Shown: piece by piece, positions 9,491-56,861 of the stretch
Position numbering within the stretch: position 1 is the first letter of the stretch
How the letters are laid out: every line of letters begins with the position of its first letter
The notes under the pieces: generated by a model
What the model was told of the DNA's origin: nothing
The model's database searches: none
What the model saw: the letters and a program-made list of their open reading frames with translations, nothing else
Program-made: the position numbers and the translations under genes
NCBI GenBank assembly: GCA_002894685.1
Contig: NCRC01000019.1
Span: 1 to 64,000, forward strand
Direction of reading: 5' to 3'
Source of the DNA: Salinivenus lutea
GTDB lineage: Bacteria; Bacteroidota; Rhodothermia; Rhodothermales; Salinibacteraceae
DNA length: 64,000 nucleotides

Positions 9491-10309
9491 TTACTCCCCG
9501 CCCAGATCCCCCGAGGGGCCCGTCGCCGAGCCGTCGTCGAGGGCAAAGGTGGCTCGGGGGCGGGCCGCCGCGAAGAGCAGAAGCCCCGCCGCGACCGACA
9601 CGTTCAGCGACTCCGCCGGCCCCCGCATCGGGATGGCGGTCCGCTCGTCGCAGGCCTCGGCCACGGCGGGCGCCAGCCCCTCGCCCTCGCTGCCGACGAC
9701 CACCACCAGCGGGCGGTCCCAGTCGACCGACCAGTACGGCGTATCGGCCGCCCCGTCGGCCCCCACGACCCAGTAGCCCCGCTCCTTCACCTGCTCCAGC
9801 ACGCGGGCGAGGTCGCTCGTCCGAGCAATGGGGATGCGCGGGGCGGTGCCGGCACTGGCCTTGATGGCCGCGGCGTTGAGGGGCGCCATCTCGCGGTCCG
9901 GAACGATGACGCCGTCTGCCCCGGCGGCGACGGCACTCCGGAGGATGGCGCCGAAGTTGCGCGGGTCGGTTACGCGGTCGACGGCCAGGAGGAACGGCTT
10001 TTTGTCCTTGACCACGCCCCAGGAAGGGGCAATCTCGGAAAGCATCTCGTCGACCTCCCGGTACCGGAGCGGGGCCGTGATGGCCACGACGCCCTGGTGT
10101 GCCGCGCCCTGCGCCTCGTGACGAAGGCGGGCCGCGGGCACGTACTGCACCGGCGCGCCCCGCGACTGGGCCGCCTGCCGGATGGCGCCAATCTGTTCGC
10201 CACTGGCGCCCTGTTCCAGCATCACCTTTTCGATGCCAAGGTCGTCGCGCTCAAGCGCCTCCAGCACGGGCTGGCGGCCTACAAGGGTCGAGGTGTCGTC
10301 GTCACTCAT
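9491..10309 (-). CDS. rlmB: SpoU-family 23S rRNA 2'-O-methyltransferase (RlmB-like)
   Basis: A 272-residue SPOUT-knot methyltransferase using S-adenosylmethionine. The N-terminal substrate-binding domain (about 1-80) begins LVGRQPVLEALE. The catalytic domain carries motif 1 AVDRVTDPRNFGAILRSA, motif 2 VVVVGSEGEGLAP and motif 3 IPMRGPAESLNVSVA. This matches RlmB, which methylates G2251 of 23S rRNA; TrmH-type tRNA enzymes share the fold, so the exact target is inferred. The ATG at 10309 starts the family alignment; the upstream extension is Pro/Arg-rich and divergent from the thiolase operon. Confidence 0.9.
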   Translation of the reverse strand: MSDDDTSTLVGRQPVLEALERDDLGIEKVMLEQGASGEQIGAIRQAAQSRGAPVQYVPAARLRHEAQGAAHQGVVAITAPLRYREVDEMLSEIAPSWGVVKDKKPFLLAVDRVTDPRNFGAILRSAVAAGADGVIVPDREMAPLNAAAIKASAGTAPRIPIARTSDLARVLEQVKERGYWVVGADGAADTPYWSVDWDRPLVVVVGSEGEGLAPAVAEACDERTAIPMRGPAESLNVSVAAGLLLFAAARPRATFALDDGSATGPSGDLGGE

Positions 10310-10499
10310 ACGAAGGTCGGGACTAGAAAGAAAATCGAATCGATGGGTCGGGCAGGGGCGGCGCCCAGCAGGGCCTCCCGGCGGACGCGATGGGGAGGCA
10401 AGCGGGACGTCCCGGGTGGGGCCTTCTCGTTCCTCCATGCAACGGGCCGGGCGGGCATGCGTTTAGGAAGAGCACTTCATTTTCATCACGTCCCCCGCA

Positions 10500-11795
10500 A
10501 TGTCTTCTCCTGCTCCCCGGACGGCCGTGCTCGTCGACGGCTGTCGTCTTCCGTTCCAGCGCTCCGGCACCGGCTACGAGGACCTGATGGCCTACGACAT
10601 GGGCCGGATGGTGCTCCGGGGCCTTCTGAGTCGTACCGGCCTCTCCCCCGAACGGATCGACCGGGTCGTGATGGGATCGGTCATCCAAGACCCGGAGACG
10701 AGCAACGTGGCCCGCGAGTCGGCCCTCGGCGCGGGCATCCCCCACTCGGTGCCCGCCTTCACGGTCACAATGGCCTGCATCTCCAGCAACCAGGCGTTCA
10801 CCAGCGGGATGGATCTCGTGCGCACCGGCCTGGCCGACGTGGTGGTCGCCGGCGGCACCGAAACGCTCAGCGATCCGCCGATCCGGGTTGCGCGCCCGCT
10901 CCGCAAGCGGCTGTTTGAGGCCCGCAAGGCAAAGGGCCCCGCGGACTACGTGGAACTGCTGGAGGGCCTCCGCCCCTCGGACCTGCTCCCGGAATCCCCG
11001 GCGATCGCCGAATTTTCGACGGGCGAGGTGATGGGCGAGAGCGCCGACCGGCTGGCGGCGATGTTTGGGGTGTCGCGGGAGGAGCAGGACGCCTACGCCC
11101 TCCGCTCGCACCGACGCGCGGCGGAGGCCCGGGACGCCGGACACCTCGGCCCGGAGCTCCATCCGGCCACTCCGCCCCCGCACTGTGAGCCGATCACGAC
11201 CGACAACGTGGTGCGCGACGATACGTCGATGGAGAAACTGCGATCCCTCCCCCCGGCGTTCGTGGACCCCTACGGCACCGTTACCGCCGGAAACGCGTCC
11301 GCCCTCACCGACGGGGCCTCCGCCACGCTCCTGATGGCGGAGGAGGTGGCCGACGCCGAAGGGTTCGCCCCACAAGCTGCCCTCCGCGACTATACGTACG
11401 TGGCCCAGGACCCCGGCACCGAGCTCCTGCTGGGCCCTGCCTACGCGATCCCCCAGGTCCTGGATGCCGCCGGACTTTCCCTCGACGACATCGACGTGGT
11501 GGAGCTCCACGAGGCGTTCGCCGGCCAGGTGCTGGCGGTGCTGGAGGCGCTGCAGTCCGACACCTTTGCCCAGGAAAACTTGGGCCGCGGCTCGGCGGTC
11601 GGAGCGATCGACCCGGACCGCCTCAACGCCTGGGGCGGGTCGCTGTCGCTGGGCCATCCCTTCGGCGCGACGGGCACCCGCCTCGTCACAACCGCCGCCC
11701 ACCGCCTGCACGTGGAGGACGGCCGGTGGGCCCTGGTCGCGGCCTGCGCCGCCGGCGGGCAGGGCCACGCCCTGCTGTTGGAACGACGCCCGTAG
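10500..11795 (+). CDS. fadI: acetyl-CoA C-acyltransferase (FadI/FadA thiolase)
   Basis: A 431-residue thiolase that cleaves 3-ketoacyl-CoA with CoA in the last step of beta-oxidation. The acylated Cys93 is in TVTMACISSNQAF, the catalytic His in VELHEAFAGQVLA and the C-terminal base Cys in AACAAGGQGHA. Length and the insertion after residue 125 resemble FadI rather than the shorter FadA. It is followed after 39 bp by fadJ, making the classic beta/alpha subunit pair of the trifunctional complex. The 190-bp gap to rlmB should hold the promoter. Confidence 0.95.
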   Translation: MSSPAPRTAVLVDGCRLPFQRSGTGYEDLMAYDMGRMVLRGLLSRTGLSPERIDRVVMGSVIQDPETSNVARESALGAGIPHSVPAFTVTMACISSNQAFTSGMDLVRTGLADVVVAGGTETLSDPPIRVARPLRKRLFEARKAKGPADYVELLEGLRPSDLLPESPAIAEFSTGEVMGESADRLAAMFGVSREEQDAYALRSHRRAAEARDAGHLGPELHPATPPPHCEPITTDNVVRDDTSMEKLRSLPPAFVDPYGTVTAGNASALTDGASATLLMAEEVADAEGFAPQAALRDYTYVAQDPGTELLLGPAYAIPQVLDAAGLSLDDIDVVELHEAFAGQVLAVLEALQSDTFAQENLGRGSAVGAIDPDRLNAWGGSLSLGHPFGATGTRLVTTAAHRLHVEDGRWALVAACAAGGQGHALLLERRP

Positions 11796-43070: not shown

Positions 43071-45581
43071 GTGACGTGGCCTTCTCCTCTTGACCGCGCC
43101 CTGCGGGAAGCCGTAACGCTGGGCATCGTCCTGCTGGCGGTCCTCCTGCTGGGGCGCGGGCTGGAGTTTCTCTTTGTGGCCCGTGCGCACTCGCTCGGGG
43201 TGCCCCTCTGGCGATACGAGGCTCTCGGCCTCCTCCAGGACCTCGACCTGGGTCTTCTGCTGGCGGCCGGGGGCACGGCCCTGTACCTCGGACTCTCCGC
43301 CCTCAGCCGCCGACTGGCGGTCGGGCTGTACGGCGGGGCCCTCCTCGGTACGGGGCTTCTCAGCGTGGGGCTTGCGCGGTACTACGCCACGACCCTCCAG
43401 CCCCTGGGCACCGACCTCTGGGCCTACAGCCTCCCGGAGGTGACCAGCACCGTGCAGGCCTCCACCGCCGCCGGCCCGCTGTTCTGGCTCGGCGCCGTCG
43501 GAATCGCCGTCCTCGCGGTCGGGGGGCTCGTCGCCGCCGTCCGGCGCCCGGTCCCCTCCCGCGTTTCGTACGCGGGCGTGGCGCTCATGCTCGGGGGCCT
43601 GGTCGCCTCCCCGCCCCCGCCCGGAGCCGACGCGCCCGGCACCGAGCATCTTGCCACGAGCAAGGTCGGCTATTTTGCCGCGGAGACGCTGTCGCTCCTC
43701 TCCTCGTCGCCCCCGTCCGCGGCGTCCCTGGCGTCGGCGTCCGATGCCGACTCGTCGCAGCGCCCCTACCCGTGGATGCATCGGCCGTCGTCCGCCGATG
43801 TGCTGGGCCCATTTTTTGAGGACGCAGCCACCGGGGAACCCGCCCGTCCGCCGAATCTGGTCTTCATTATCTTCGAGGGGCTGGGGACAACCTTCGTCGG
43901 GGACGACGCCCGCTACGGCGGGTTCACGCCCTTTGTCGACTCCCTGGCGCAGGAGGGGCTCTACTGGCCCAACATGCTGAGCACCACCGGGCGCACCTTC
44001 GGCATCATGCCGTCCCTCTTCGGGTCGCTCCCCTACGCCGAGCGTGGCTTCATGGCCCTGGGCGCAGACATGCCCCGCCACCAAACCCTCATCCGGCTGC
44101 TCGGCGAACGGGGCTACGACACCCACTACTACAGCGGGTTCGACCTCTCCTTCGACAATGTCGACCAGTTCCTGGACCGGCAGGCGGTGGACCACGTCGT
44201 CGGCCGGCAGGGCCTGGACGCCCGCTTCGGGGGCGATCCGGGGGTGGAAACGCGCTACTGGGGCTACCCCGACAAGGAGATGTTCTCCCTCGTGTCGACC
44301 CTCCTGGATACGGTGGGCCGGGGGCCGCGGCTCGAAATCTACCACACCCTGCAGACGCACGAGCCGTTTGAGGTGCCGACCCCGGCGGCCTACCAGAACC
44401 GTTTCGAGCAGCGCCTCCGCACGCTCGACCGGCGGCCGGAGGTCCGGGAGCGATACCGCACCTACCAATCGCAGCTCACGACCTTCCTCTACACCGACGA
44501 CGCCCTCCGGGAGTTTTTTGCCTCGTACCGGCAGCGCCCCGAGTTCGACAACACGATCTTCGTGATCACCGGGGATCACCGGCTCATTCCGATTCCCCAG
44601 CCCAACCAGATCGCCCGGTACCACGTCCCCCTCATCGTCTACTCCCCCCTCCTCGACCGGCGCGCGACCTTCCGGTCCGTCTCCACGCTGGCCGACGTCC
44701 CGCCCACCCTGCTTTCCCTCCTGGGCGACACGTACGGCCAACCGCTCCCCGACCGGGCCCACTGGCTCGGCAGCGGCCTCGATACCACGCGGCAGTTCCG
44801 CAGCACGCACGCGATGCCGCTGATGCGCAACAAGAACCAGCTGATCGACTATCTACACCGGGACTACTACCTGTCCGGCGACCAGCTCTACCGCCTGACG
44901 GAATCGATGGGCCTGACGCCGGTGGACCAGCCCGACACCCGGCGCACGCTGGAGGGACGGCTGGCCCGCTTCAAACAGGTCAACCGGTACGTCACCCAGG
45001 AAGACAAACTGTTCGACCCGGACGTCCCCCTCGCCGACCTGCCGACGGCCCCGCCCCTCCAGCCCGCCGATTCGGGTGCCGTCCGCCCCGACGCAGAGGC
45101 CGTGCTCGCCCGGATCGAGGAGCAGGCGATGGCGCCCGACGAGCAGTTTCAGCTGGCCCGCCAAAACGCATTCGCGGGGAACTACGCCGTCGCCCGCGCG
45201 ATTGCCCGCCGGGTGCTGGACGCCCACCCCGAGTACCACGACGTGCGCCTGCTGCTGGGCCGCACCTACGCCTGGACGCACCAGTTCGAGACGGCTCGTG
45301 CGCACTTCCGGGCGGTTCTGGACCGCGAGGAGACGTATCTCGACGCCTACAACGCGCTGGCCGACGCGGAGCGGTGGGCCGAACGGCCCCGGACCGCCCT
45401 CCAGGTGCTCGACACCGGCCTCCAGCACCACCCAGAGGCCCCGTCCCTCCTTACCAAGAAGGCCGAGGTCCTGCTGACCCTGGACCGGACCGCCGACGCC
45501 CGCCCCGTGGTCCGCCGGCTGGAGCAGGTGGCCCCGGGGTCCGACGCGCTCTCCACCCTCAAAGAACGGGTTCGCTCGTAG
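43071..45581 (+). CDS. LtaS-like sulfatase/phosphoglycol-transferase membrane protein with TPR tail
   Basis: An 836-residue protein starting at GTG. About four to five N-terminal helices (residues about 13-180) anchor a sulfatase-fold domain (about 260-600). Glu269 in VFIIFEGLG, Thr309 in STTGRTFGIMPSL, His430 in LQTHEPF and Asp502-His503 in VITGDHR correspond to the LtaS metal and nucleophile residues. A TPR region (about 690-830) ends the protein. This family transfers phosphoglycerol or phosphoethanolamine, or hydrolyses sulfate. The next gene, 5 bp away, is a TPR/barrel protein, so it may decorate a glycan before export. Confidence 0.85.
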   Translation: MTWPSPLDRALREAVTLGIVLLAVLLLGRGLEFLFVARAHSLGVPLWRYEALGLLQDLDLGLLLAAGGTALYLGLSALSRRLAVGLYGGALLGTGLLSVGLARYYATTLQPLGTDLWAYSLPEVTSTVQASTAAGPLFWLGAVGIAVLAVGGLVAAVRRPVPSRVSYAGVALMLGGLVASPPPPGADAPGTEHLATSKVGYFAAETLSLLSSSPPSAASLASASDADSSQRPYPWMHRPSSADVLGPFFEDAATGEPARPPNLVFIIFEGLGTTFVGDDARYGGFTPFVDSLAQEGLYWPNMLSTTGRTFGIMPSLFGSLPYAERGFMALGADMPRHQTLIRLLGERGYDTHYYSGFDLSFDNVDQFLDRQAVDHVVGRQGLDARFGGDPGVETRYWGYPDKEMFSLVSTLLDTVGRGPRLEIYHTLQTHEPFEVPTPAAYQNRFEQRLRTLDRRPEVRERYRTYQSQLTTFLYTDDALREFFASYRQRPEFDNTIFVITGDHRLIPIPQPNQIARYHVPLIVYSPLLDRRATFRSVSTLADVPPTLLSLLGDTYGQPLPDRAHWLGSGLDTTRQFRSTHAMPLMRNKNQLIDYLHRDYYLSGDQLYRLTESMGLTPVDQPDTRRTLEGRLARFKQVNRYVTQEDKLFDPDVPLADLPTAPPLQPADSGAVRPDAEAVLARIEEQAMAPDEQFQLARQNAFAGNYAVARAIARRVLDAHPEYHDVRLLLGRTYAWTHQFETARAHFRAVLDREETYLDAYNALADAERWAERPRTALQVLDTGLQHHPEAPSLLTKKAEVLLTLDRTADARPVVRRLEQVAPGSDALSTLKERVRS

Positions 45582-45586
45582 TCGCC

Positions 45587-46822
45587 ATGCCCCGGTCGTC
45601 CGTATTCGTTGCGTTGGCCGCTCCACTGCTCGCAGTGGCCCTGGTCGTCCCGCCCCCGGCCGCCGGGCAGTCGGTTGACTCCCTCTTCAGCCGGGCCCGG
45701 GCCGTGGCGTTTCAGGAGGGCGACTACGAGCAGGCCCGCGCCCTCGCCTACCGCGCGCTCGACCGGAGCCCCGACTACCACGGCATCCGCGTCTTCGCCG
45801 CCCGGACGTGGGCGTGGGAGGGCCGCCGCGACACCGCCCGCACCGAACTCCGGTATGTACTGGAGCGGGCCCCCAACCACTACGAGGGGCTCAAGGCCAT
45901 GATCGACGTGCAGATGTGGTCGGACCAGCCCAACCAGGCCCTCACCTACGCCAATCAGGCCCTTGAGCACTACCCCGAGGACGCCGACTTCCTGAACAAG
46001 CGGGCCAGCCTCCTGCGCTGGCTCAATCGTCCGGCCGCCGCCCGGCGCCAGCTTCTCTCTCTTCTCGAACGGAATCCTTCCGACGAGACCGCCCGCCGCA
46101 CCCTCCAACAGGTGCGGGCCGAGCAGCGAACGTACACGGCCACCGCCACGTACCAGCGCAGCTCGTTTACGAGCGGCCTCGTCCCCTGGCACGTGGGCAG
46201 CATATCGGTGAGCCGCCCCACCCCCATCGGGACCCTCATCGGCCGGGCCCGCTACGCCAATCGATTCGCGAGCAGTGGGCTGCAGTTTGAAGTCGATGCC
46301 TATCCCTCCCTCGCCTCCGGCCTGTACGCCTACCTGAGCGCCGGGGCCTCGGCCTCCGCCATCTTCCCCGGGTATCGGTTTGGGGCGTCCCTCTACAAGA
46401 GCCTGCCCCGGAGCCTCACGGGCGAACTCGGCACCCGCTACCTGAACTTCGGCGGGGGCGGGGTCTTCGTGCACACCGCCTCCCTCACAAAGTACTACGG
46501 CAACTACCTCCTTCGGGCCGGCACGTACGTCACTCCGTCCGGAAGCGGCACGTCGGTCTCCGTGAACGGGACCGTCCGTCGGTACCTGGGCGGGGCGACA
46601 ACCTACGTGGGCCTGAGCGGCAGTGTGGGCTCGGCCCCCAGCGACCCCACCTTTCAGGACGACGTGGAGCGCCTCCGATCGTGGGGCGTCTCCGCGGAGG
46701 GGCAGACGCCCCTGGGCGCGCGCACGCTGCTGAGCGGATCGGTCGGCTACGACTTTGAGGAGTTCGCGGCCCGCTCCCGGGGCCAGATCAGCGTCAGCCT
46801 CTCTGTGAGTTATGACTTTTAG
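45587..46822 (+). CDS. YaiO-type outer-membrane beta-barrel with N-terminal TPRs
   Basis: A 411-residue exported protein with a signal peptide to about residue 27. Residues about 30-160 are TPR repeats (for example EQARALAYRALDRSPDYHGI), and about 182-411 form an outer-membrane barrel with alternating strands and a terminal Phe (ISVSLSVSYDF). This is the YaiO family, which resembles a small version of PgaA and of the NfrA outer-membrane parts of glycan export systems. It is co-transcribed with the sulfatase gene and converges on the glycosyltransferase gene (27-bp gap). Confidence 0.87.
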   Translation: MPRSSVFVALAAPLLAVALVVPPPAAGQSVDSLFSRARAVAFQEGDYEQARALAYRALDRSPDYHGIRVFAARTWAWEGRRDTARTELRYVLERAPNHYEGLKAMIDVQMWSDQPNQALTYANQALEHYPEDADFLNKRASLLRWLNRPAAARRQLLSLLERNPSDETARRTLQQVRAEQRTYTATATYQRSSFTSGLVPWHVGSISVSRPTPIGTLIGRARYANRFASSGLQFEVDAYPSLASGLYAYLSAGASASAIFPGYRFGASLYKSLPRSLTGELGTRYLNFGGGGVFVHTASLTKYYGNYLLRAGTYVTPSGSGTSVSVNGTVRRYLGGATTYVGLSGSVGSAPSDPTFQDDVERLRSWGVSAEGQTPLGARTLLSGSVGYDFEEFAARSRGQISVSLSVSYDF

Positions 46823-46849
46823 CCCCGCGGGGTCCTGCTGTCCCCGTCC

Positions 46850-48256
46850 TCAGGAGTCCGCCGTACGAAACCCACTGCGCTCCATCACGCCCCATCCTTC
46901 CTTGCTCCGGAAGTACGACCAGAGCCCCTTGATGCGCCACCAGGCATTGAGTTGCCGGTAGCCGAACATTTCGACCACCGGCAGCGCCAGGAGCTGCAGC
47001 AGGTCGGCGGTCGACTCGTACCGGCGAAAGGAGAGCTCTTCCAGCGCCACCGCGCTGAGGGACAGCGCCATCCCCAGCACGAACGCCACCAGAAAGAAGG
47101 CAAGGGCAAACGGCCCGGAGATCGCGCCCATCGAAAGGGCAATCACGAACATCACGTAGCCGAGCGCCTCCACGATTGGGCCGAACGTCTCCAGGACGTA
47201 GAAAAATGGGTACGCCCCGAGCCCCACGCGCCCGTAGCGGGGATTGGCCAGCATGCGCTGGTGACGAACCATGGTGTCGGCGAGGCCTCGCTGCCAGCGA
47301 TCCCGCTGGCTGCCCAGCACCCGGAGGGTCGACGGCACTTCGGTCCAGGCCACCGGGTCGGGAACGAAGCGAATCTGGTAGTCGCGGTCGTCCTCCCGCA
47401 TGCGGCGGTGCATGCGCACCACCAGCTCCATGTCTTCGCCGACCGTGTCGGTGGCGTACCCACCCACGTCGACCACCGTCTCGCGCCGAAACAGCCCGAA
47501 CGCACCCGAAATGATGAGCATGGCCCCGAGGGCGTCCCATCCCACCCGGCCAAAGAAAAACGCCCGGAGGTACTCCAGCACCTGCAGCTTGGGCAGCCAC
47601 CGGCTCGGCATGCCCACCTCCTGTACGCGTCCCGCCCGGACGCTGCACCCGTTCGCCACCCGCACGATGCCCCCCACCGCAATCGTCGATCGGTCCTCCA
47701 GGAACGGACGGATCATACGAATCAGCCCCTCGCCCTCCACGAGCGTGTCGGCGTCCATGGCACAGAAATAGGGCGTGTTGCAAAAGTTGATCCCCGTATT
47801 CAGGGCGTCGGCCTTGCCGCCGTTGTCCTTGTCGATCACCCAAAGATTGGGGTGGATCTGGCTCTGGTAGACCTCCCGCACGTCCGCCGTGGGAAGCGTC
47901 GCCGTGGGCGGGCGGCTGGCGGGGGCGAGGTCGAAGGCCGCGTGGAGGCGCTCCATCGTGGCGTCGCCGGACCCGTCGTTGACCACCATCACCTCAAAAT
48001 TCGGGTAGTCGAGGCTCAAAAAGGCCCGGGTAGACTCGATGCAGGTGGCCTCCTCGTTGTAGGCCGGCGCGATGAGCGTGATGGGGGGAAGCGCCTCCGA
48101 GGTGAGCGCCTCTTCGGGGCTGTAGGCCGAGAGCAGGTGCCGGTACCGGACCAGCGCCCCGAACGTGACCAGGGTCATGACCAGGTAGCCCGAATTGAGC
48201 AGGACGAAATACCCCAGAAGGAGATAATTCGTCCACTGCAAGATCGTCTGTATCAT
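46850..48256 (-). CDS. processive-type family 2 glycosyltransferase
   Basis: A 468-residue inner-membrane enzyme. A helix at about 10-35 is followed by a GT-A domain: ITLIAPAYNEEATCIES, MVVNDGSGDAT, DKDNGGKADALN, CAMDADTLVEG (Asp168/170) and DTVGEDMELVVRMHRRMRED with Asp275. SQRDRWQRGL (residues 316-325) is the Q(Q/R)xRW motif of chain-elongating synthases such as PgaC, HasA and BcsA. Two to three C-terminal helices (about 345-415) could form a pore. There is no PilZ domain. The start shares ATGA with the HEAT gene, so it is coupled to it. Confidence 0.92.
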   Translation of the reverse strand: MIQTILQWTNYLLLGYFVLLNSGYLVMTLVTFGALVRYRHLLSAYSPEEALTSEALPPITLIAPAYNEEATCIESTRAFLSLDYPNFEVMVVNDGSGDATMERLHAAFDLAPASRPPTATLPTADVREVYQSQIHPNLWVIDKDNGGKADALNTGINFCNTPYFCAMDADTLVEGEGLIRMIRPFLEDRSTIAVGGIVRVANGCSVRAGRVQEVGMPSRWLPKLQVLEYLRAFFFGRVGWDALGAMLIISGAFGLFRRETVVDVGGYATDTVGEDMELVVRMHRRMREDDRDYQIRFVPDPVAWTEVPSTLRVLGSQRDRWQRGLADTMVRHQRMLANPRYGRVGLGAYPFFYVLETFGPIVEALGYVMFVIALSMGAISGPFALAFFLVAFVLGMALSLSAVALEELSFRRYESTADLLQLLALPVVEMFGYRQLNAWWRIKGLWSYFRSKEGWGVMERSGFRTADS

Positions 48257-49341
48257 GCCGGGGCGGGGAGCACGTCCGAGGCGAGGGCGGCGCGAGGGTG
48301 GTCTGATTGGCGGATGCGGTGCAGGGGGCCGGGGCGTCCCAGTTCGAGAAGGCTTTTGGCGGCACTCAGCGCGACCCAGCGGGAGTCGTCCCCGCGGACA
48401 AGGGCGGCGAGCAGCGGCTCTTCCGCTCGGTCCCCCAATCGGCCGAGCGCACGGGCGGCGTGGATGCGAACGAACGGCACCTCCGACGCCAGGTAGGGCC
48501 GCACCTCATCCACGTGGCGCGACTGACCGACCCGCCGGATCAGCCGGAGCAGCCCGGCCACCAGCTCGGGCTCGGGGGCCGACGAGGCGTCGGGAGCGTC
48601 CCGCAGGAGGCGTGCGGCCCCCGCCGCGGCGTCGCTATCGCCCAGCCAGCGCAGCGTTTCGGCCGCACACACCCGCACAAACGTCGACCGCTCGTCGTCT
48701 GCCAGGGCCGCCCGAAAGGTCGGCGCCGCGTCCTCCCCGAGCTCCAGGAGGGCCGAGGTCACCTGCCGGCGGTCCATGTTCTGGAGCCGATCGAGCACGC
48801 CCAGCAGCCGCTCCGCATCCTCCGGATGCCCCAGCTGCGCGAGGCGACGCAGTGCCATGCCCACAACCCGGCCCGACGGGTCGTCGAGCCGCTCCCGGAG
48901 GGCGTCCGCGTAGGCGTCTCCTCCCAGAAGGCCCAACCGCTGGACGGCCTGGGCCCGGACCAGCGGCCACCGGGCGGTCAATGTGTCCGCCACGGCGTCG
49001 AGGAAGGGCGCGGCCACGGCGCGAATTTGGCGGAGGGCCTCCCCCCGCACCGTCGTGGCGTACGGCACCAGAAACGACAGGAAGGCCGTGCGCTGGGCCC
49101 GCGACACCGACTCCGCAAAGGCATCGGGCGACCGTTCCCCGGCCAGCACGTCCAGCAGCCCCTCCCGCCAGGCCGTCCGGCGCGCCCTCTCCGTCCGGGC
49201 CTGGCGCCGGGACCAGAGGTGAAGCCCCAGGGCCACCACGGCAAACACAAGAGAGAGGGCCGTCAGGATCAGGGTCGCCCAAATGAGGACGGTGAGGACG
49301 GGGGACGCCTCCGATACGAAGGGGACGGGGCCAGAAAACAT
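48253..49341 (-). CDS. membrane-anchored HEAT-repeat protein
   Basis: A 362-residue protein with one N-terminal helix (about 14-42, SPVLTVLIWATLILTALSLV) and a long cytosolic array of HEAT-like repeats, for example VRAQAVQRLGLLGGDAYADA and VRIHAARALGRLGDRAEEPL. Such scaffolds bind other proteins. It lies between the degenerate receiver gene and the glycosyltransferase gene, with its stop inside the glycosyltransferase start (ATGA). This fits a partner of the synthase; the partner itself is not identified. Confidence 0.82.
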   Translation of the reverse strand: MFSGPVPFVSEASPVLTVLIWATLILTALSLVFAVVALGLHLWSRRQARTERARRTAWREGLLDVLAGERSPDAFAESVSRAQRTAFLSFLVPYATTVRGEALRQIRAVAAPFLDAVADTLTARWPLVRAQAVQRLGLLGGDAYADALRERLDDPSGRVVGMALRRLAQLGHPEDAERLLGVLDRLQNMDRRQVTSALLELGEDAAPTFRAALADDERSTFVRVCAAETLRWLGDSDAAAGAARLLRDAPDASSAPEPELVAGLLRLIRRVGQSRHVDEVRPYLASEVPFVRIHAARALGRLGDRAEEPLLAALVRGDDSRWVALSAAKSLLELGRPGPLHRIRQSDHPRAALASDVLPAPA

Positions 49342-49367
49342 CCGGCACAACGGGGTGAGGGAACGAA

Positions 49368-49787
49368 TTACTCGGTGCTCAGGGCCTCCGGAACGCTCGA
49401 CGGACGCGCGGCGGCCCGAAACTGGAGGCATCGCTGGATGCGGGCCACGGCCACCCGGGGAGCGAACGGGCGCGTGATAAACTCGGCCGCCCCCATTTCG
49501 AAGGCGCGCACAATCTCATCGTCGTTGCCGCGTCGCCCTAGCAACACGACGGGCGGGCACATGGGAGGAAGCGACCGCAGGAGCTCAAGTCCGGTCCGGC
49601 CGGGGAGGCGCACCTGAGCCACGACCACGTCGATGTCGGTCTCCTGAATGCGTTCGTGTGCCGCCTCGCCATCCTCGACCCGTGGCACCTCAAGGCCGGC
49701 GCGTCGGAGCCGGTCGCCCAGAAGATCGGCACTGGGCTGATGCTCTAAAGCCAGGAGAACCGTGGTGTGGGTGGCGTCTACATCCAT
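49368..49787 (-). CDS. degenerate receiver-domain protein (pseudoreceiver)
   Basis: A 139-residue single receiver domain. It has the fold pattern (VVLLALEHQPSADLL at the first strand, VVVAQVRLPGRTGLELLRS, AAEFITRPFAPRV). However, the acidic pair is replaced by Glu15-His16, the phospho-Asp by Gln58 in VAQVRLP, the Thr/Ser by Gly84 in VLLGRRG, and the Lys by Arg106 in ITRPF. So phosphorylation is not expected. It would work as a fixed-state or ligand-binding scaffold. A GTG/ATG choice at 49799 would add four residues. It lies 38 bp after the GGDEF gene and 26 bp before the HEAT gene. Confidence 0.85.
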   Translation of the reverse strand: MDVDATHTTVLLALEHQPSADLLGDRLRRAGLEVPRVEDGEAAHERIQETDIDVVVAQVRLPGRTGLELLRSLPPMCPPVVLLGRRGNDDEIVRAFEMGAAEFITRPFAPRVAVARIQRCLQFRAAARPSSVPEALSTE

Positions 49788-49825
49788 GCCGGGGCACATC
49801 GTCAAGAAGCAAAACGGTGGGGGGC

Positions 49826-52078
49826 CTAGGAGGCGTCGCGGGTGTTGATCGCTGATTCAGCGCCCCAGAGGCTACGCCAGGGCGGATGTGCAATCATGTT
49901 TTCGACCGCATCGGCGGCCACAGGGGGCGACAGAAGATAGCCCTGCCCGTAGGCGCACCCAAACGACCGGAGGAGCGACAGCTGCTCTTCCGTTTCAATG
50001 CCCTCGGCCGTCACCGTGAGATCCAACTGCCTGCCCAGATTTAGGACCGACCGCACGAGTGCCGTCCCCGCCTCGCTCTCCGGGACTTCGTCAATCAGTC
50101 CCCGGTCCAGCTTGAACCCGTCCACCGGGAACTTGAGAAGGGACTGCAGCGAGGAGTATCCGGTGCCAAAGTCATCAATTTCCATGCGGATGCCGAGGGA
50201 CTGGAGCTTTTGCACCTCCGCCCAGCGGGTTGTCTCCCCCGTTCCGACGGCGCGCTCCGTGATCTCCATCGTGAAATCGGACGGTCCGATGTCGTATCGC
50301 TGCAGCACCGTCGCCACAAAGTCCTTGGTGTCCGGCTGGAAGAACTCCTGGCGGGAGAAGTTGCCACTGAGCGAGAGCTCCCACTCCCGGTTGAAGGTCG
50401 ACCGGAGGTCGTGCAGGACGGCACAGGCGGAGTCAATCACCTGGTGCCCAATGGGGACGATGAGGCCCGTTTCCTCCGCCACATCGAGGAACGCCCCGGG
50501 CGATACCAGCTCGCCGTCGGGACGGCGCCACCGAGCCAGCACCTCAAACCCGAAGAGCCGCCCCTCCTCCAACCCCACGATGGGCAGGAAGAACGGCTCA
50601 AACTCCTCCCGCTCCACGCCGCGGCGGAGGGCCGCATCCATCCGAAGCCGCGTGTCGACCTTCTCCGTCATGGTCGGCTCGTGGATGGCCACGTCCTGGG
50701 TCATCGCGTCCTTGGCCTCGTACATCGCCACGTCGGCGTCCCGCAGGGCGGCCTCCGCCGACTCGTACTGCGAGAGGTCCGGCACAATCCCAATGCTGGC
50801 CCCCACGAACACCTCCTGTCCGTCAATGTCGAGGGGCGTCCCGATTGCCTCCAAGATGCGGTGGGCAACGTCGGTGGCCTCGGGTTCCGTCTGCCCCGAT
50901 CGCAGCCACACCACGAACTCGTCGCCCCCCAACCGGGCCACCACATCCCCGTCCCGCACGGCCGACCGGAGCCGACGGGCCACCACTTGGAGCAACCGAT
51001 CGCCCGCGCTGTGGCCCAGGCTGTCGTTGACCTCTTTGAAGCGGTCCAGGTCCATGAAGAGGAGGGCCCCGGACGCAGGGTCGGCGGCCGGGTCATCGGC
51101 GTCCGCGTCGTTGGGGGCAAGGGCCGCGTCCAGTCGCTGGTCGAGGGCCTCCCGGCCCAGCAGACCGGTAAGCTGGTCGTAGGTGGCCCGGTGCTCCAGC
51201 TCATCTTCGCGGGCCCGCCGCTCGGTCACGTCGCGCTGGGCAGACACCCAGTGGGTGAGGCGCCCGTTCGCGTCGCGGACCGGGGTCACGGTCCACTCCA
51301 CCGTGTACGGCGTGCCGTCCTTGCGGTAGTTGACCGCTTCCACTTTCACGCTCGTCTGCGCCTTCAGGACCGAACGCACCTGATCCAGCGTCTCGCGGTC
51401 CGTTTCGGGGCCCTGGAGCATTCGCGGGGTGTTTCCGACCAGTTCCTCTCGCTCGTATCCGGTGAGCTCGAGGAACGCCTCGTTGACCCAGACAATGCGG
51501 GGGCCGGGGGGATCGATGGGCTCCCCCTCGGTCACCACCACCGCCTCTTCAATCTGCTCCAGCGCCGAGGTCAAATACCCCACCTGATAGGTCCGCTGGC
51601 GCGACTCCAACAAGCCGGACACAAGATCCGCGAGGCGACGAAGCAGAGTCCGATCGGCGTCGCTGAACGACCGGGGCGTCGGGCCGCTCACGCACAGCGT
51701 GCCGACCCGATAGTCGTCCTCGACGGTAAGCGGCGCCCCGGCGTAAAACCGAATGCCGTCCGTCTTCAGCGCAAACGGGTTGCCCTTGAATCGGTCGTCG
51801 GCCCGGGCATCCTCCACCACCAGGACCTCGGCCCCGTCAATGACGTGGGCACAAAATGAATCCTCCCGGGGCGTTTCTGAGATCCCGAGCCCGCAGGTGG
51901 CCTTGAACCACTGCCGATCCTCATCCACAAACGTCACGGCCGCGTTTGGGACGTCGAACACCTGTTGCGCAACCCTTACCACACGATCGAAGGCCGCCTC
52001 AGACTCGGTATCCAGGATGTCGAGCCGATGGAGGGCCTTAATACGGTCGGCCTCGTGTTCGGGGACGGGGTAGCTCAT
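49826..52078 (-). CDS. GAF-PAS-GGDEF-EAL c-di-GMP turnover protein
   Basis: A 750-residue cytosolic protein. GAF-like domain about 25-160, PAS about 165-285 (VWVNEAFLELTGYEREELVG), GGDEF about 290-460 and EAL about 490-730. GGDEF at 384-388 is intact, with an inhibitory RxxD (RDGD, 375-378) exactly five residues before it. The EAL motif is EVL (512-514); Asn573, Glu605, Asp635, Asp636, Lys656, Glu692, Glu695 and Gln712 are retained, so phosphodiesterase activity is plausible. The ATG at 52078 starts the GAF domain. It heads the glycosyltransferase operon and is divergent from susC. Confidence 0.95.
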   Translation of the reverse strand: MSYPVPEHEADRIKALHRLDILDTESEAAFDRVVRVAQQVFDVPNAAVTFVDEDRQWFKATCGLGISETPREDSFCAHVIDGAEVLVVEDARADDRFKGNPFALKTDGIRFYAGAPLTVEDDYRVGTLCVSGPTPRSFSDADRTLLRRLADLVSGLLESRQRTYQVGYLTSALEQIEEAVVVTEGEPIDPPGPRIVWVNEAFLELTGYEREELVGNTPRMLQGPETDRETLDQVRSVLKAQTSVKVEAVNYRKDGTPYTVEWTVTPVRDANGRLTHWVSAQRDVTERRAREDELEHRATYDQLTGLLGREALDQRLDAALAPNDADADDPAADPASGALLFMDLDRFKEVNDSLGHSAGDRLLQVVARRLRSAVRDGDVVARLGGDEFVVWLRSGQTEPEATDVAHRILEAIGTPLDIDGQEVFVGASIGIVPDLSQYESAEAALRDADVAMYEAKDAMTQDVAIHEPTMTEKVDTRLRMDAALRRGVEREEFEPFFLPIVGLEEGRLFGFEVLARWRRPDGELVSPGAFLDVAEETGLIVPIGHQVIDSACAVLHDLRSTFNREWELSLSGNFSRQEFFQPDTKDFVATVLQRYDIGPSDFTMEITERAVGTGETTRWAEVQKLQSLGIRMEIDDFGTGYSSLQSLLKFPVDGFKLDRGLIDEVPESEAGTALVRSVLNLGRQLDLTVTAEGIETEEQLSLLRSFGCAYGQGYLLSPPVAADAVENMIAHPPWRSLWGAESAINTRDAS

Positions 52079-52438
52079 CGGGTGGGGGATTTGGACAAGA
52101 GATACGGGCAAACCTCTCCACTCGGTGGGGGAAAGGCAAATCCCGGAACGTGGGCCCGGCGGAAAACGACGGGGGGCCCCTGCCGTCCGCCCGGGGGCAC
52201 TGGGACGGGGCCGACGGGCAAACAGGCGCCTCTTGGGCTGCGCCGATGGCGCAAATCGAGGGCCGCCGACGACGCAATCCGTTCCGGTCGGGAGCCCCGT
52301 CCGGCCCGGCGCATAGGAGGGGCGTTGCGGTGCTCCCACACGGCCCGTGTGGCCGGGAGCCCTCTCCCACGCATCCTACCCCTGGCGGTCCCCACCCAAC
52401 GGGACCCTACTCCCCCGGCCCCAACTCCTGTTGCCCCT
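52079..52438. other. 360-bp divergent regulatory gap
   Basis: Between the c-di-GMP gene and susC. It holds both promoters. There is an imperfect hairpin at 52332-52360, ahead of susC. No gene or tRNA seen. Confidence 0.4.
52332..52360 (+). promoter_or_regulatory. hairpin in susC leader
   Basis: GCTCC pairs with GGAGC, and inside it CACACG pairs with CGTGTG across a 3-nt loop, with a 4-nt bulge between the two stems. It lies about 79 nt ahead of the susC ATG. Confidence 0.35.
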
Positions 52439-55400
52439 ATGATCGTCCGCTCCCTCCTTTTCCTCTTCGCCGCGTGTGCCCTTGCGATGGGCCCCGCCCC
52501 CGTCCTCGCCCAGTTTACCGTCGAGGGAACGGTGCTCGATGACGTGTCCGGCGACCCGATCCCCGGCGCCAACGTCCTCGTCGTCGGCACCTCGACCGGC
52601 GTCGCCACCTCTGCCGACGGCACCTTTGAGGTGAGCGTCGACGGCGAGTCCGGCACCCTGCGCTTCACATTCGTCGGCTACCGGGCCACGGAGCGGGAGG
52701 TGACCCCGTCGTCCGGCGCGCTGGAGGTGCGCCTGCAGCCCGACGTGTCGAACCTCGACGAGGTGGTGGTCACGGGCCTGGCCTCCTCGGTGCAGCGGCG
52801 CAACCTGGCCAACGCCGTCACCAAGATTGACGCCGAGGACATCGCCGGGGCCGTCGACCCCTCCACGCTCGACAACGCCCTGCAGGGCAAGCTGCCCGGC
52901 GTCAACATCGTCTCGCAGAGCGGCGCGCCCGGCGGGGGCAACAACGTGCAGCTGCGCGGCATCAGCACGCTCGGCGCCGGCTCCTCCCAGCCCCTCTACA
53001 TCATCGACGGCGTCTACCTCAACAACAGCCAGATCTCTGTGGGCCGCTCGGTGGCGGACCAGGCCGGCGGTCCGTCCCAGGACAATACCGCCAACCGCCT
53101 CGCCGACCTCAGCCCCGAGGACATCGAGAGTGTGGAGGTGCTGAAGGGCCCCTCCGCCGCCGCCATCTACGGCCAGCGCGCCAACGCCGGCGTGGTCATC
53201 ATCCAGACGAAGCGCGGCCAGGCCGGCCGCACCACCGTGTCCTTCTCGCAGGACCTCGGCGCCAACACTGCGCTCAACCTGTTGGGCCCCGCCGACTGGA
53301 GCGAGGACAAGATTGCGCTGTTCGAGGAAGAGGGCACCGCGAGCTTCCAGCGTGAAATTGAGCGCTTCCGCGAAGGCAATCGCTTCGACTACGAGGACGA
53401 AGTGTACGGCGGCACTGGGCTCACGACCAACTCGCAACTGAGTGTGGGCGGCGGCACCGAGGACACACAGTTTTACCTCTCCGGCGGGCTGCGGGACGAG
53501 GAGGGCATCGTCGAGGGCACGCAGTTCACTCGGAAGTCGATCCGGGCCAACATCGACCACGCGGTGAGCGACCGCCTCCGCCTCACCTCGCAGTCGAACT
53601 ACATCTACACCGACAACAACCGCGGCTTTACCGGCAACCAGAACAGCACGGGCGGCTCCATCGGCTACAGCCTGGCCTACGCCCGCAGCTACGCCGACTT
53701 CTTCGCCCGCGAGGACGGCACCTTCCCCGACAACCCCTACTTCGCCGAAAACCCGCTCCGCATCATCGACGGGGCCACCAACAACCAGGAAATCAGCCGG
53801 TACATCCAGTCGTTCTCGGCCGACCTCGACCTCTGGTCGAGCGACGCCGCCTCCCTGACCCTCCGCGGGCAGGGCGGCTTCGACTACCTGAACAGCAACA
53901 GCCTCGTCTACTTCCCGCCGTTCTTCCAATTCCAGCAGGCCCAGCCCGACCCCGGAGATGCCATCCGCGGCAAGCAGGACGACTTCAACACCAACGCTCA
54001 GGCCTTCCTCGTCTACAACCAGACGATCGACCGCGGCATTGGCGAACTGAACCTGACCACGCAGGCCGGGTTCTCGCGCTTCACGCAGGACACGAACCGC
54101 CAGCTCATCCGCGGCCGCGGGCTGCCCCCCGCCCAGACGAACCCAATCAACGGCAGCATCCAGGAGATCGTCAATCAGACGGCCGACGACGTGTACAACA
54201 CGGTCCGCATCCGCGACATCGGGTGGGTGGGCCAGCAGGAGGTCAACTGGGCCAACCGCCTGATCGGCACCGCCGGGGTGCGCCTCGACCGCTCCACCCT
54301 CAACGCCGCACAAGACGACTACTACGTCTACCCGAAGGCGTCCCTGGCCCTCAACCTGCACGAGTTCGACTTCTGGACGCTCCCGCAGGTCGGCCAGTTC
54401 AAGCTCCGCGGCGCCTACGGCGAGACCGGCGGCCTCCCACAGTACGGCGTGACGTTCGAGGCCCTCACCAGCCAGAACATCGACGGCAGCCTCGGCTCCA
54501 CCATCGCCACCCGGGGCGTCGATCCCGACCTGACCCCCGAACGCGCCCGCGAGTTCGAGTTCGGCCTCGACGCCAGCGCGCTCGACCAGCGCCTGGGCCT
54601 GGAGCTCACCTACTACCGCAAGACCGTGTCCGACCTCATCCTGGACCGCGAAAACCCGATCTCGACCGGCATCACCGAGATCGCCGTGAACGCCGGCACG
54701 CTCCGCAACACCGGGTGGGAGCTCGGCCTCACCGTCGCGCCCTTCCAGTCCGAGCGCTTCGGGTGGAACTCCAAGACGTTGTTCTGGACGAACGACTCCG
54801 AAATCACTGAACTCAACATCCCCCGCTTCACCACGGGCGGCTTCGGCGCGGCCCTGGGCACCTACCTCATCCAGGAGGGCTTCTCGCCCACCACCATCGT
54901 GGGCACCCCCGCCACGCCGGACGCGGAGAGCCCGTTCACCGTGTACGGCGACGCGCAGCCGGACTTCCAGATGTCGTTCTCGAATGACTTCACGGTCTTC
55001 CGCAACTTCCAGCTCGGCGTTCTTTTCCACTGGAAGCGCGGCGGCGAAAACATCAACCTGTCCCGCCTCCTCGGCGACATTGGCGGCACGACGCCCGACT
55101 GGAACGAGGACGAGGACGGCGACGGCGTCCCCAACGGACGCGACCGGGTCGACCAGTTTGGCCCTGGCGCCGCGCAGTTTATCGAGACCGCCTCGTACGT
55201 GAAGCTGCGCGAAGCGTCGCTCCACTACAACGTGCCCTCCTCCTTCCTCGAAAACCAGCTCGGGGGCGCCCTGAGCCGGGCCCGCCTCGGGATTACGGGC
55301 AACAACCTCCTGCTCTTCTCCGACTACTCGAGCTACGACCCGGAAGTCTCCGTCTTCGGGACGCAGGCAGTGGCCCAGTCCGTGGAGGTAACCCCGTACC

Positions 55401-55444
55401 CCAGCGCTCGCAGCGTCACCTTCCAGCTCCGGCTCACGTACTGA
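52439..55444 (+). CDS. susC: SusC/RagA-type TonB-dependent outer-membrane transporter
   Basis: A 1001-residue outer-membrane receptor. Signal peptide to about residue 24, a CarboxypepD-like N-terminal domain (about 25-105), then a plug with NLDEVVVTGLASSVQRRN and the SusC signature NALQGKLPGVNIVSQSGAPG followed by LYIIDGVYL. The rest is a 22-strand-type barrel. SusC proteins carry oligosaccharides with the SusD lipoprotein next door, powered by TonB. Here they are linked to a GH13 enzyme, so an alpha-glucan is the likely cargo. Confidence 0.95.
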   Translation: MIVRSLLFLFAACALAMGPAPVLAQFTVEGTVLDDVSGDPIPGANVLVVGTSTGVATSADGTFEVSVDGESGTLRFTFVGYRATEREVTPSSGALEVRLQPDVSNLDEVVVTGLASSVQRRNLANAVTKIDAEDIAGAVDPSTLDNALQGKLPGVNIVSQSGAPGGGNNVQLRGISTLGAGSSQPLYIIDGVYLNNSQISVGRSVADQAGGPSQDNTANRLADLSPEDIESVEVLKGPSAAAIYGQRANAGVVIIQTKRGQAGRTTVSFSQDLGANTALNLLGPADWSEDKIALFEEEGTASFQREIERFREGNRFDYEDEVYGGTGLTTNSQLSVGGGTEDTQFYLSGGLRDEEGIVEGTQFTRKSIRANIDHAVSDRLRLTSQSNYIYTDNNRGFTGNQNSTGGSIGYSLAYARSYADFFAREDGTFPDNPYFAENPLRIIDGATNNQEISRYIQSFSADLDLWSSDAASLTLRGQGGFDYLNSNSLVYFPPFFQFQQAQPDPGDAIRGKQDDFNTNAQAFLVYNQTIDRGIGELNLTTQAGFSRFTQDTNRQLIRGRGLPPAQTNPINGSIQEIVNQTADDVYNTVRIRDIGWVGQQEVNWANRLIGTAGVRLDRSTLNAAQDDYYVYPKASLALNLHEFDFWTLPQVGQFKLRGAYGETGGLPQYGVTFEALTSQNIDGSLGSTIATRGVDPDLTPERAREFEFGLDASALDQRLGLELTYYRKTVSDLILDRENPISTGITEIAVNAGTLRNTGWELGLTVAPFQSERFGWNSKTLFWTNDSEITELNIPRFTTGGFGAALGTYLIQEGFSPTTIVGTPATPDAESPFTVYGDAQPDFQMSFSNDFTVFRNFQLGVLFHWKRGGENINLSRLLGDIGGTTPDWNEDEDGDGVPNGRDRVDQFGPGAAQFIETASYVKLREASLHYNVPSSFLENQLGGALSRARLGITGNNLLLFSDYSSYDPEVSVFGTQAVAQSVEVTPYPSARSVTFQLRLTY

Positions 55445-55493
55445 CCCGATCCCCGTCGTCCCCGCCCGTCCCTCCCTCCTGCCTTCTGCCCGA

Positions 55494-56861
55494 ATGACCA
55501 TGCCCCTCCTCCGCCTCGCGGTCGTCACCGTCGCCCTCACCCTCGGCCTCACGGCCTGCGACTTTTTCGACCCGGACCCCATCACGAACGCCGACAGCCC
55601 CTCCACGGAAGCGGTCTTGCAGAACGCAACCCGGGCCGAACTGCAAAACCTGGTCTCCGGCCTCGAATTCCAGCACCGGAACTACACCGACGGCACGGCC
55701 GGTGTCACGCAGCTCTACGGCTCCTTTGGGCGCGAGGTGTACGCGGCCTACGCCTCGGACCCCCGCTTCATCACCAACTGGCTGGGCAAAGGGGGCGTGA
55801 CGCCCGACCCTGAGTTTTTTGCCGACGCGGCCTCGTACGACTCGCCCTATGAGGCCATCAAACAGGGCAACACGCTGATTGAGGCGGTCAACAACACCGA
55901 CGCGGTCACGGAGGCCGAGCGGGCCGGGTACGTGGGCCTGGCCCAAACCCTCCAGGCGTTTCAGTATCTGATTCCGCTACAGGGACAGTACCGAAACCCC
56001 GACGGCGCCATTCGGATCGACGTGTCCGACCCGCTGAATCCCGGCCCCTTCCTGCCCTACGACGAGGCCCTGGCGCGCATCCGCACGCTGCTCGACGAGG
56101 CGAACACTGCGCTCGGGCAGGCCGGTGGCGACTTTGCCTTTACACTCACGAGCGGCTGGAATGAGTTCGGCAGTCCCGCCGGGGTGCAGGAGGTCAACCG
56201 CGCCATTGCGGCCCGCGCCGCACTCTACGCTGAGGACTGGGACGGGGCCCTCGACGCCCTCGACGACTCCTTCCTGTCGCTCACTGCCGGCGCCGAAAGC
56301 ATGAACACGGGGGCCTACCACCCCTTCGGCGCCCCGCCCGACCTCTTCAACCCGCTCTTCTACCCCCGCAACGCCAACACGAGCCAGATCCTGATGGTGC
56401 ACCCGTCGATGATTGACGACGCCCTCCCCGGCGACGAGCGGGTGCCCCTGAAGTTTTTCGAGCGCGACACCCCCATCACGAACGGCGACCTCCCTGGGGT
56501 GGAGCTCTTCTACCAGGACAACCGGTACGACTCCAACACAGCGCCCGTGCCCTTCATCCGAAACGAGGAACTGATCCTCATCTACGCGGAGGCCCAGGCC
56601 CAACGGCAGGAGTTTGGGGCCGCCGTAGACGCCATCGACCTGATCCGGACAACCTGGGGTCTCGACCCGTACGCCGGCCCCGAGACCACCGACGCCCTGA
56701 TCGACGAGATTCTCTTCCAGCGGCGATACTCGCTCTGGGCCGAGGGCGGGCACCGCTGGATTGACGCCCGGCGCTACGACCGCCTCGACGAGATCCCGAC
56801 GGCCCTGGACGAAGGGCAGGTGTTCGAGCGCCTCGTCCGCCCGCTCAGCGAAATCTCGTAG
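55494..56861 (+). CDS. susD: SusD/RagB-type surface glycan-binding lipoprotein
   Basis: A 455-residue lipoprotein with a lipobox ending LTAC at Cys22. The mature part contains helical TPR-like repeats. The C-terminal region around RNEELILIYAEAQAQRQEFG, IDLIRTTWGLDP and EILFQRRYSLWAEGGHRWID has the SusD hallmarks. SusD forms a lid on SusC and binds the sugar outside the cell. It follows susC by 49 bp. A perfect 13-bp hairpin lies 48 bp after the stop. Confidence 0.94.
   Translation: MTMPLLRLAVVTVALTLGLTACDFFDPDPITNADSPSTEAVLQNATRAELQNLVSGLEFQHRNYTDGTAGVTQLYGSFGREVYAAYASDPRFITNWLGKGGVTPDPEFFADAASYDSPYEAIKQGNTLIEAVNNTDAVTEAERAGYVGLAQTLQAFQYLIPLQGQYRNPDGAIRIDVSDPLNPGPFLPYDEALARIRTLLDEANTALGQAGGDFAFTLTSGWNEFGSPAGVQEVNRAIAARAALYAEDWDGALDALDDSFLSLTAGAESMNTGAYHPFGAPPDLFNPLFYPRNANTSQILMVHPSMIDDALPGDERVPLKFFERDTPITNGDLPGVELFYQDNRYDSNTAPVPFIRNEELILIYAEAQAQRQEFGAAVDAIDLIRTTWGLDPYAGPETTDALIDEILFQRRYSLWAEGGHRWIDARRYDRLDEIPTALDEGQVFERLVRPLSEIS

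Follow-up and report, generated by a model that had tools for sequence, protein, structure and literature searches.

A putative receiver/HEAT-gated surface-glycan synthase locus in Salinivenus lutea and its likely link to a single c-di-GMP enzyme

How might c-di-GMP act on a glycan synthase that has neither a PilZ nor an MshEN domain? This question is raised by a locus in a 64,000-nucleotide stretch of Salinivenus lutea DNA (the window), in which a family-2 glycosyltransferase (GT2) gene shares an operon with the gene for a GGDEF-EAL protein. All six genes that an earlier note had claimed for window positions 43071-52078 were found in place by open reading frames (ORFs) and Pfam, as follows:

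43071..45581, + strand: LtaS/OpgB-type phosphotransferase of sulfatase fold; TM helices at the N terminus, TPRs at the C terminus (Pfam)
45587..46822, + strand: TPR protein with a YaiO outer-membrane beta-barrel and an N-terminal hydrophobic, signal-like segment (Pfam, TIGR04390)
46850..48256, - strand: processive GT2 (DxD, QxxRW, TM helices), the synthase (Pfam GT2 families)
48253..49431 (alternative start 49341), - strand: membrane-anchored HEAT-repeat solenoid with one N-terminal TM helix (Pfam HEAT_2, 1.1e-20)
49368..49805, - strand: stand-alone degenerate receiver domain (Pfam Response_reg, 5e-16)
49826..52078, - strand: GAF-PAS-GGDEF-EAL protein, start at 52078 (Pfam, motifs)

We consider it probable that these six genes specify one receiver/HEAT-gated, synthase-dependent surface-glycan system, which in this organism would have been rewired to a private c-di-GMP enzyme.

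The four minus-strand genes are closely packed. The GGDEF-EAL and receiver genes are separated by about 20 nt, the receiver/HEAT junction is a 64-nt overlap or a gap according to the HEAT start codon chosen, and the HEAT/GT2 junction is the only one with an ATGA, so that the plural ATGA overlaps previously claimed for the operon reduce to one. On the plus strand, the YaiO gene begins 5 nt past the LtaS stop. That this pair is convergent with the four-gene GT2 operon would fit a chance or loose neighbourhood, with the LtaS-type and YaiO proteins functionally separate from the synthase; but in a congener (L122) the six genes are co-directional in one operon (GGDEF-EAL>REC>HEAT>GT2>LtaS>YaiO), with gene overlaps at GT2/LtaS and LtaS/YaiO, the two genes lie near GT2 in many diderm loci, and LtaS and GT2 form one ORF in four Bacteroidota, Sphingobacterium, Chryseobacterium, Kaistella and Empedobacter (borne out by Pfam for L067). 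The fusions and the congeneric operon largely refute a chance neighbourhood already, and we regard it as highly improbable. Elsewhere in Bacteroidota, too, GT2 frames can be long (1135-1273 aa). Another congener has, besides the locus itself, an incomplete copy with a GT2 fragment, YaiO, EAL and GGDEF (L183; genome G071, contig C217). Divergent to the window operon lie genes for a TonB-dependent receptor (Plug, CarbopepD_reg) and then a SusD-family protein (51965-56861, + strand), and a SusCD-type glycan uptake pair thus adjoins the glycan synthesis locus.

The synthase itself has the DxD and QxxRW motifs (here QRDRW) of a membrane-embedded processive GT2, and D168, D170, Q317, R320 and W321 are invariant in our GT2 alignment (A1). 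From its fold and motifs, it would polymerise a sugar on the cytoplasmic face and move the chain through the inner membrane. AlphaFold modelled the window HEAT protein (pLDDT 94.3) with a long N-terminal helix leading into a HEAT solenoid, which matches HEAT solenoids in the PDB and resembles alphaRep, importin and CpcE folds. A single ORF of a Spirochaetales genome encodes both HEAT and GT2, with Pfam matches to HEAT_2 and GT2. Folded by AlphaFold with GT2 alignment rows only, this natural fusion gave a model (pLDDT 84, pTM 0.73) that describes the overall fold without interface confidence: a helical solenoid (residues 62-420), a disordered linker (423-443) and then a membrane GT-A synthase, the nearest solved folds of this relative of the window GT2 being hyaluronan, cellulose and chitin synthases. 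Two further long GT2 ORFs (L075, L110) are extended at the N terminus by about 500 residues, and Pfam detected no HEAT in the extension of L075. The HEAT protein is a putative adaptor or gate of the synthase; anchored in the membrane beside GT2, it may relay a control signal from the receiver, as its conservation and the HEAT-GT2 fusion suggest.

Conservation of the genes in relatives, which the earlier note had proposed as a check, could be confirmed for a core of receiver, membrane-anchored HEAT protein and processive GT2, which spans about 14 phyla of bacteria as well as haloarchaea (GTDB genomes and plasmid loci). The GTDB genome scan gave 80 loci beyond the annotated plasmid relatives, and neighbourhoods were counted in the 77 loci whose flanks on both sides of GT2 reach 3 kb or more. 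HEAT adjoins GT2 in 75 of these 77, against none of 480 ORFs more than 4 kb away from GT2, and the gene arrangement is therefore far from chance. A receiver is present in 59 of the 77 loci, and in 61 of 82 loci checked a GT2 start codon is found no more than 10 nt from the stop of HEAT. Labels such as HEAT and YaiO come from our own profiles; Pfam bore out 56 of the 63 HEAT labels tested and 38 of the 41 YaiO labels. GT2 matches in the window's order have the receiver and HEAT upstream, in the same order. Among annotated plasmid relatives, the arrangement is receiver-HEAT-GT2 in Haloarcula and Halosolutus, receiver-YaiO-HEAT-GT2 in Mesorhizobium, YaiO-HEAT-GT2 in Legionella and TPR-HEAT-GT2 in Deinococcus, and an Emticicia relative has receiver-HEAT-GT2-TPR-YaiO-LtaS, with its HEAT gene annotated as hypothetical. 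The GT2 family is accessory, occurring in 70 of 296 good genomes of the window's phylum. No NCBIfam model names a HEAT-linked GT2, and a full-text literature search, with most subscription journals outside its reach, returned no description of a system of HEAT, GT2 and receiver; the Stutzerimonas 'sea' exopolysaccharide and lsfS genes were considered as such a description and rejected, as the text does not show it. On these comparisons, receiver-HEAT-GT2 appears to be a conserved control scheme for glycan synthases, apparently undescribed and without a curated family name.

Several branches of the family have neighbours of their own. In one Bacteroidota branch (L040, L100, L102, L104, L105, L109), HEAT-GT2 is followed by a TPR/YaiO gene and a gene for a DUF4838 protein, often also with a DUF1573-type gene. 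Large proteins without a Pfam match are encoded upstream of HEAT-GT2 in Bacillota (L036, L046, L057, L087, L099, L113); by eye they look like clan-A glycoside hydrolases and are possibly a glycan-processing partner in monoderms. Tandem duplicate GT2 genes stand behind receiver-HEAT in L105, L106, L108 and L109, the last of which is labelled Beijerinckiaceae but groups with Chitinophagaceae and hence represents a transfer or contamination.

Decoration and export are the predicted roles of the two plus-strand genes. The LtaS-type protein matches Pfam Sulfatase (1.2e-35) in addition to TPR, and has the active-site E, T and DH motifs of the sulfatase fold. Its scores lie below both equivalog cut-offs (31.8 against 970 bits for NCBIfam LtaS and 27 against 572 for phosphoglycerol transferase I), which by sequence makes it a relative, not a member, of the LtaS/OpgB phosphoglycerol transferases. 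It is a putative periplasmic decorating enzyme and, judging from its fold and natural fusion to GT2, would add a phospho-substituent, probably phosphoglycerol. The same kept active site and GT2-LtaS fusions would also suit a different product, in which a short lipid-linked glycan from GT2 would serve as primer for a teichoic-acid-like polyglycerol-phosphate chain made by LtaS, giving LTA-like material. However, LtaS is near GT2 in just 11 of 62 diderm loci, so that HEAT and GT2 persist where LtaS is mostly lacking, and the QxxRW processivity motif in GT2 and the match of a relative's fold to processive synthases also speak for a polymerising enzyme; we find an LTA-like product quite unlikely. 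The second protein, the only YaiO of the genome, belongs to the YaiO family by Pfam (YaiO 9.2e-53; PF19413, 179 bits against a cut-off of 23.9) and by TIGR04390 (152.7 bits against 32). YaiO lies near GT2 in 41 of 62 diderm loci and in none of 15 monoderm or archaeal loci (p=1.6e-6), which is the pattern expected of an outer-membrane exporter; the window barrel and this diderm-only spread agree with a TPR/beta-barrel exporter of diderms. The TPR-YaiO barrel is a putative outer-membrane exporter that, from the absence of the gene in monoderms and archaea, would carry the chain across the outer membrane. The single pathway of glycan synthesis, decoration and export proposed in the earlier note is well supported by the cross-phylum conservation, the L122 operon, the GT2-LtaS and HEAT-GT2 fusions and the diderm-only YaiO.

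We then turn to control. The window receiver has Gln at the phospho-Asp site, has lost the acidic pair and has Arg for the conserved Lys, and so has none of the three features (phospho-Asp, acidic pair, Lys) of a phosphorylatable response regulator. Of the six receivers in the window's genus, five have a residue other than Asp (Glu in three congeners), and none retains the acidic pair or the Lys. To call the receiver phosphorylation-dead is thus right for the window and for most of the genus, but most relatives differ: in 56 of 74 loci compared, the receiver nearest to HEAT has retained the phospho-Asp, the other 18 having Glu in 10 cases and otherwise other residues. A histidine kinase is encoded within 4 kb in 25 of 45 loci with an Asp-intact receiver and in none of 9 with a degenerate one (p=0.002, kinship ignored). 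Most relatives would accordingly have a receiver that looks phosphorylatable and often adjoins a sensor kinase, and the simplest reading of these sequences is that the ancestral control was a kinase-receiver pair acting via HEAT, a link that some lineages, including that of the window, may have cut.

What could have taken the place of the kinase is suggested by the fourth gene of the operon. In the window genome (99.6% complete), Pfam searches, which would miss diguanylate cyclase (DGC) or receptor families of unrecognised type, found a single GGDEF and a single EAL domain, both belonging to the operon's protein, and no PilZ or MshEN anywhere. The absence of these domains, claimed before for GT2, therefore extends to the whole genome. 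The GAF-PAS-GGDEF-EAL protein is a predicted bifunctional enzyme and, by sequence, the one c-di-GMP enzyme that can be recognised in the genome. Its PAS domain (in 49826-52078, - strand) has a LOV-like GNTPRMLQ motif with Thr at the photoactive Cys position, a motif not found in the congeners.

Within the genus, GGDEF occurs in five of six genomes with the GT2 locus and in none of seven without it. Across 114 genomes of the order, it is present in 20 of 26 with GT2 against 7 of 88 without (p=1e-11, kinship ignored), and by genus in 10 of 12 against 3 of 37 (p=2e-6, kinship beyond genus ignored), GGDEF without GT2 being found in three other genera. One of the seven genomes with GGDEF but without GT2 (G038) has the locus with the C-terminal part of GT2 and YaiO deleted; this natural deletion (L174, ~9847-11400) leaves receiver-GGDEF and HEAT, and the rest is ~96% identical to L131. 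PilZ occurs in few genomes of the order (5 of 114) and in none of the window's genus. From these genome and order counts of GGDEF, PilZ and MshEN, the enzyme most likely serves this operon, through a receptor of a kind that Pfam does not recognise. With the only GGDEF and EAL of the genome encoded in the operon, the c-di-GMP link in this genus is stronger than the earlier note could know. As a general rule, its label 'c-di-GMP-controlled' fails: elsewhere, including in archaea, control looks to be by a receiver and sensor kinase, and c-di-GMP as a general control of the module was rejected, given that the archaeal loci and many of the bacterial ones lack a GGDEF in their vicinity and that the link lies outside the wider core. 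In a sister family (L127-L132), a degenerate GGDEF with an RxxD site is attached to the receiver and lies between two receivers; this domain was rejected as a c-di-GMP receptor, being the sole GGDEF of each g33 genome, and c-di-GMP is an unlikely signal there because no recognised enzyme is present to make the ligand.

A real glycan system could also dispense with c-di-GMP as its signal, if the GGDEF-EAL protein acted by contact, as a trigger protein, or on another target, and the degenerate receiver/HEAT pair kept the synthase constitutively on. The phosphomimetic-like Glu in three of six congeners and in 10 of the 18 non-Asp cases is consistent with this, as are the genome's lack of a known c-di-GMP receptor domain and a congener (G072) that keeps the locus and has no GGDEF. 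However, the GGDEF and EXL catalytic motifs and the RxxD I-site are intact in the window and in the five congeners with the enzyme, which is the only one of the window genome and in the genus never occurs without this locus; we judge constitutive synthesis unlikely, though it carries some weight. Under the rewired, c-di-GMP-linked reading that we prefer, the loss of the receiver's phospho-chemistry, with the organism's only GGDEF-EAL protein in the operon, suggests that c-di-GMP made and destroyed at the operon most likely acts locally on the synthase. Its receptor, of an unrecognised type, would be HEAT, the receiver or GT2, and our best guess is the HEAT/receiver pair. We propose, tentatively and with less confidence than for the system as a whole, that receiver and HEAT adaptor are a new kind of synthase gating common to bacteria and archaea, and that here the phospho-dead pair became a new c-di-GMP receptor. 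If so, the operon would be the organism's complete c-di-GMP circuit of enzyme, receptor and target. With one enzyme, no known receptor domain and one apparent target, this genus offers a minimal c-di-GMP system in which the reading of c-di-GMP without PilZ or MshEN becomes directly testable, and it suggests how one synthase can shift from phospho-signalling to second-messenger control.

Comparison with known systems yields likenesses to several and identity with none. Hyaluronan synthase, the nearest solved fold to the window GT2's relative (~15% identity), acts alone according to the literature, without HEAT or receiver. The E. coli enzymes have very long branches in our GT2 tree, which leaves their exact placement unsure. 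The E. coli yaiO-yaiP region resembles the window locus in having a YaiO barrel with a GT2 nearby but has no HEAT, receiver or LtaS gene, and YaiP reaches 66 bits with our GT2 profile, on which identity was rejected. NfrA-NfrB of E. coli, which make the N4 receptor glycan (NGR) under local control of a dedicated diguanylate cyclase, share with the window the combination of GT2, large outer-membrane protein and local dedicated cyclase (PMC8669469, PMC8669472). In contrast to the window GT2, NfrB carries an MshEN domain for c-di-GMP and lacks a HEAT or receiver partner; it scores just 14 bits with our profile (730 for the window GT2), and with no MshEN in the genome NfrAB was likewise rejected. 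PgaABCD has a processive GT2 and a TPR/beta-barrel exporter, and PgaC is the nearest curated GT2 family, but the window locus has no PgaB deacetylase or PgaD (Pfam found no polysaccharide deacetylase among the six genes or flanking ORFs scanned), its barrel is of YaiO type, and its GT2, at 138 bits, falls short of the PgaC/IcaA cut-off of 422, which led us to reject that identity. Bacterial cellulose synthase, rejected on a CelA score of 52 bits against a cut-off of 699 and on the absence of genomic PilZ, resembles the window locus where Bcs acts with BcsG, a synthase decorated by a phosphotransferase of alkaline-phosphatase fold, whereas the window system has no PilZ, an LtaS/OpgB-like decorating enzyme and receiver/HEAT control. 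Judged by its predicted parts, the window system would work like the synthase-dependent exopolysaccharide systems.
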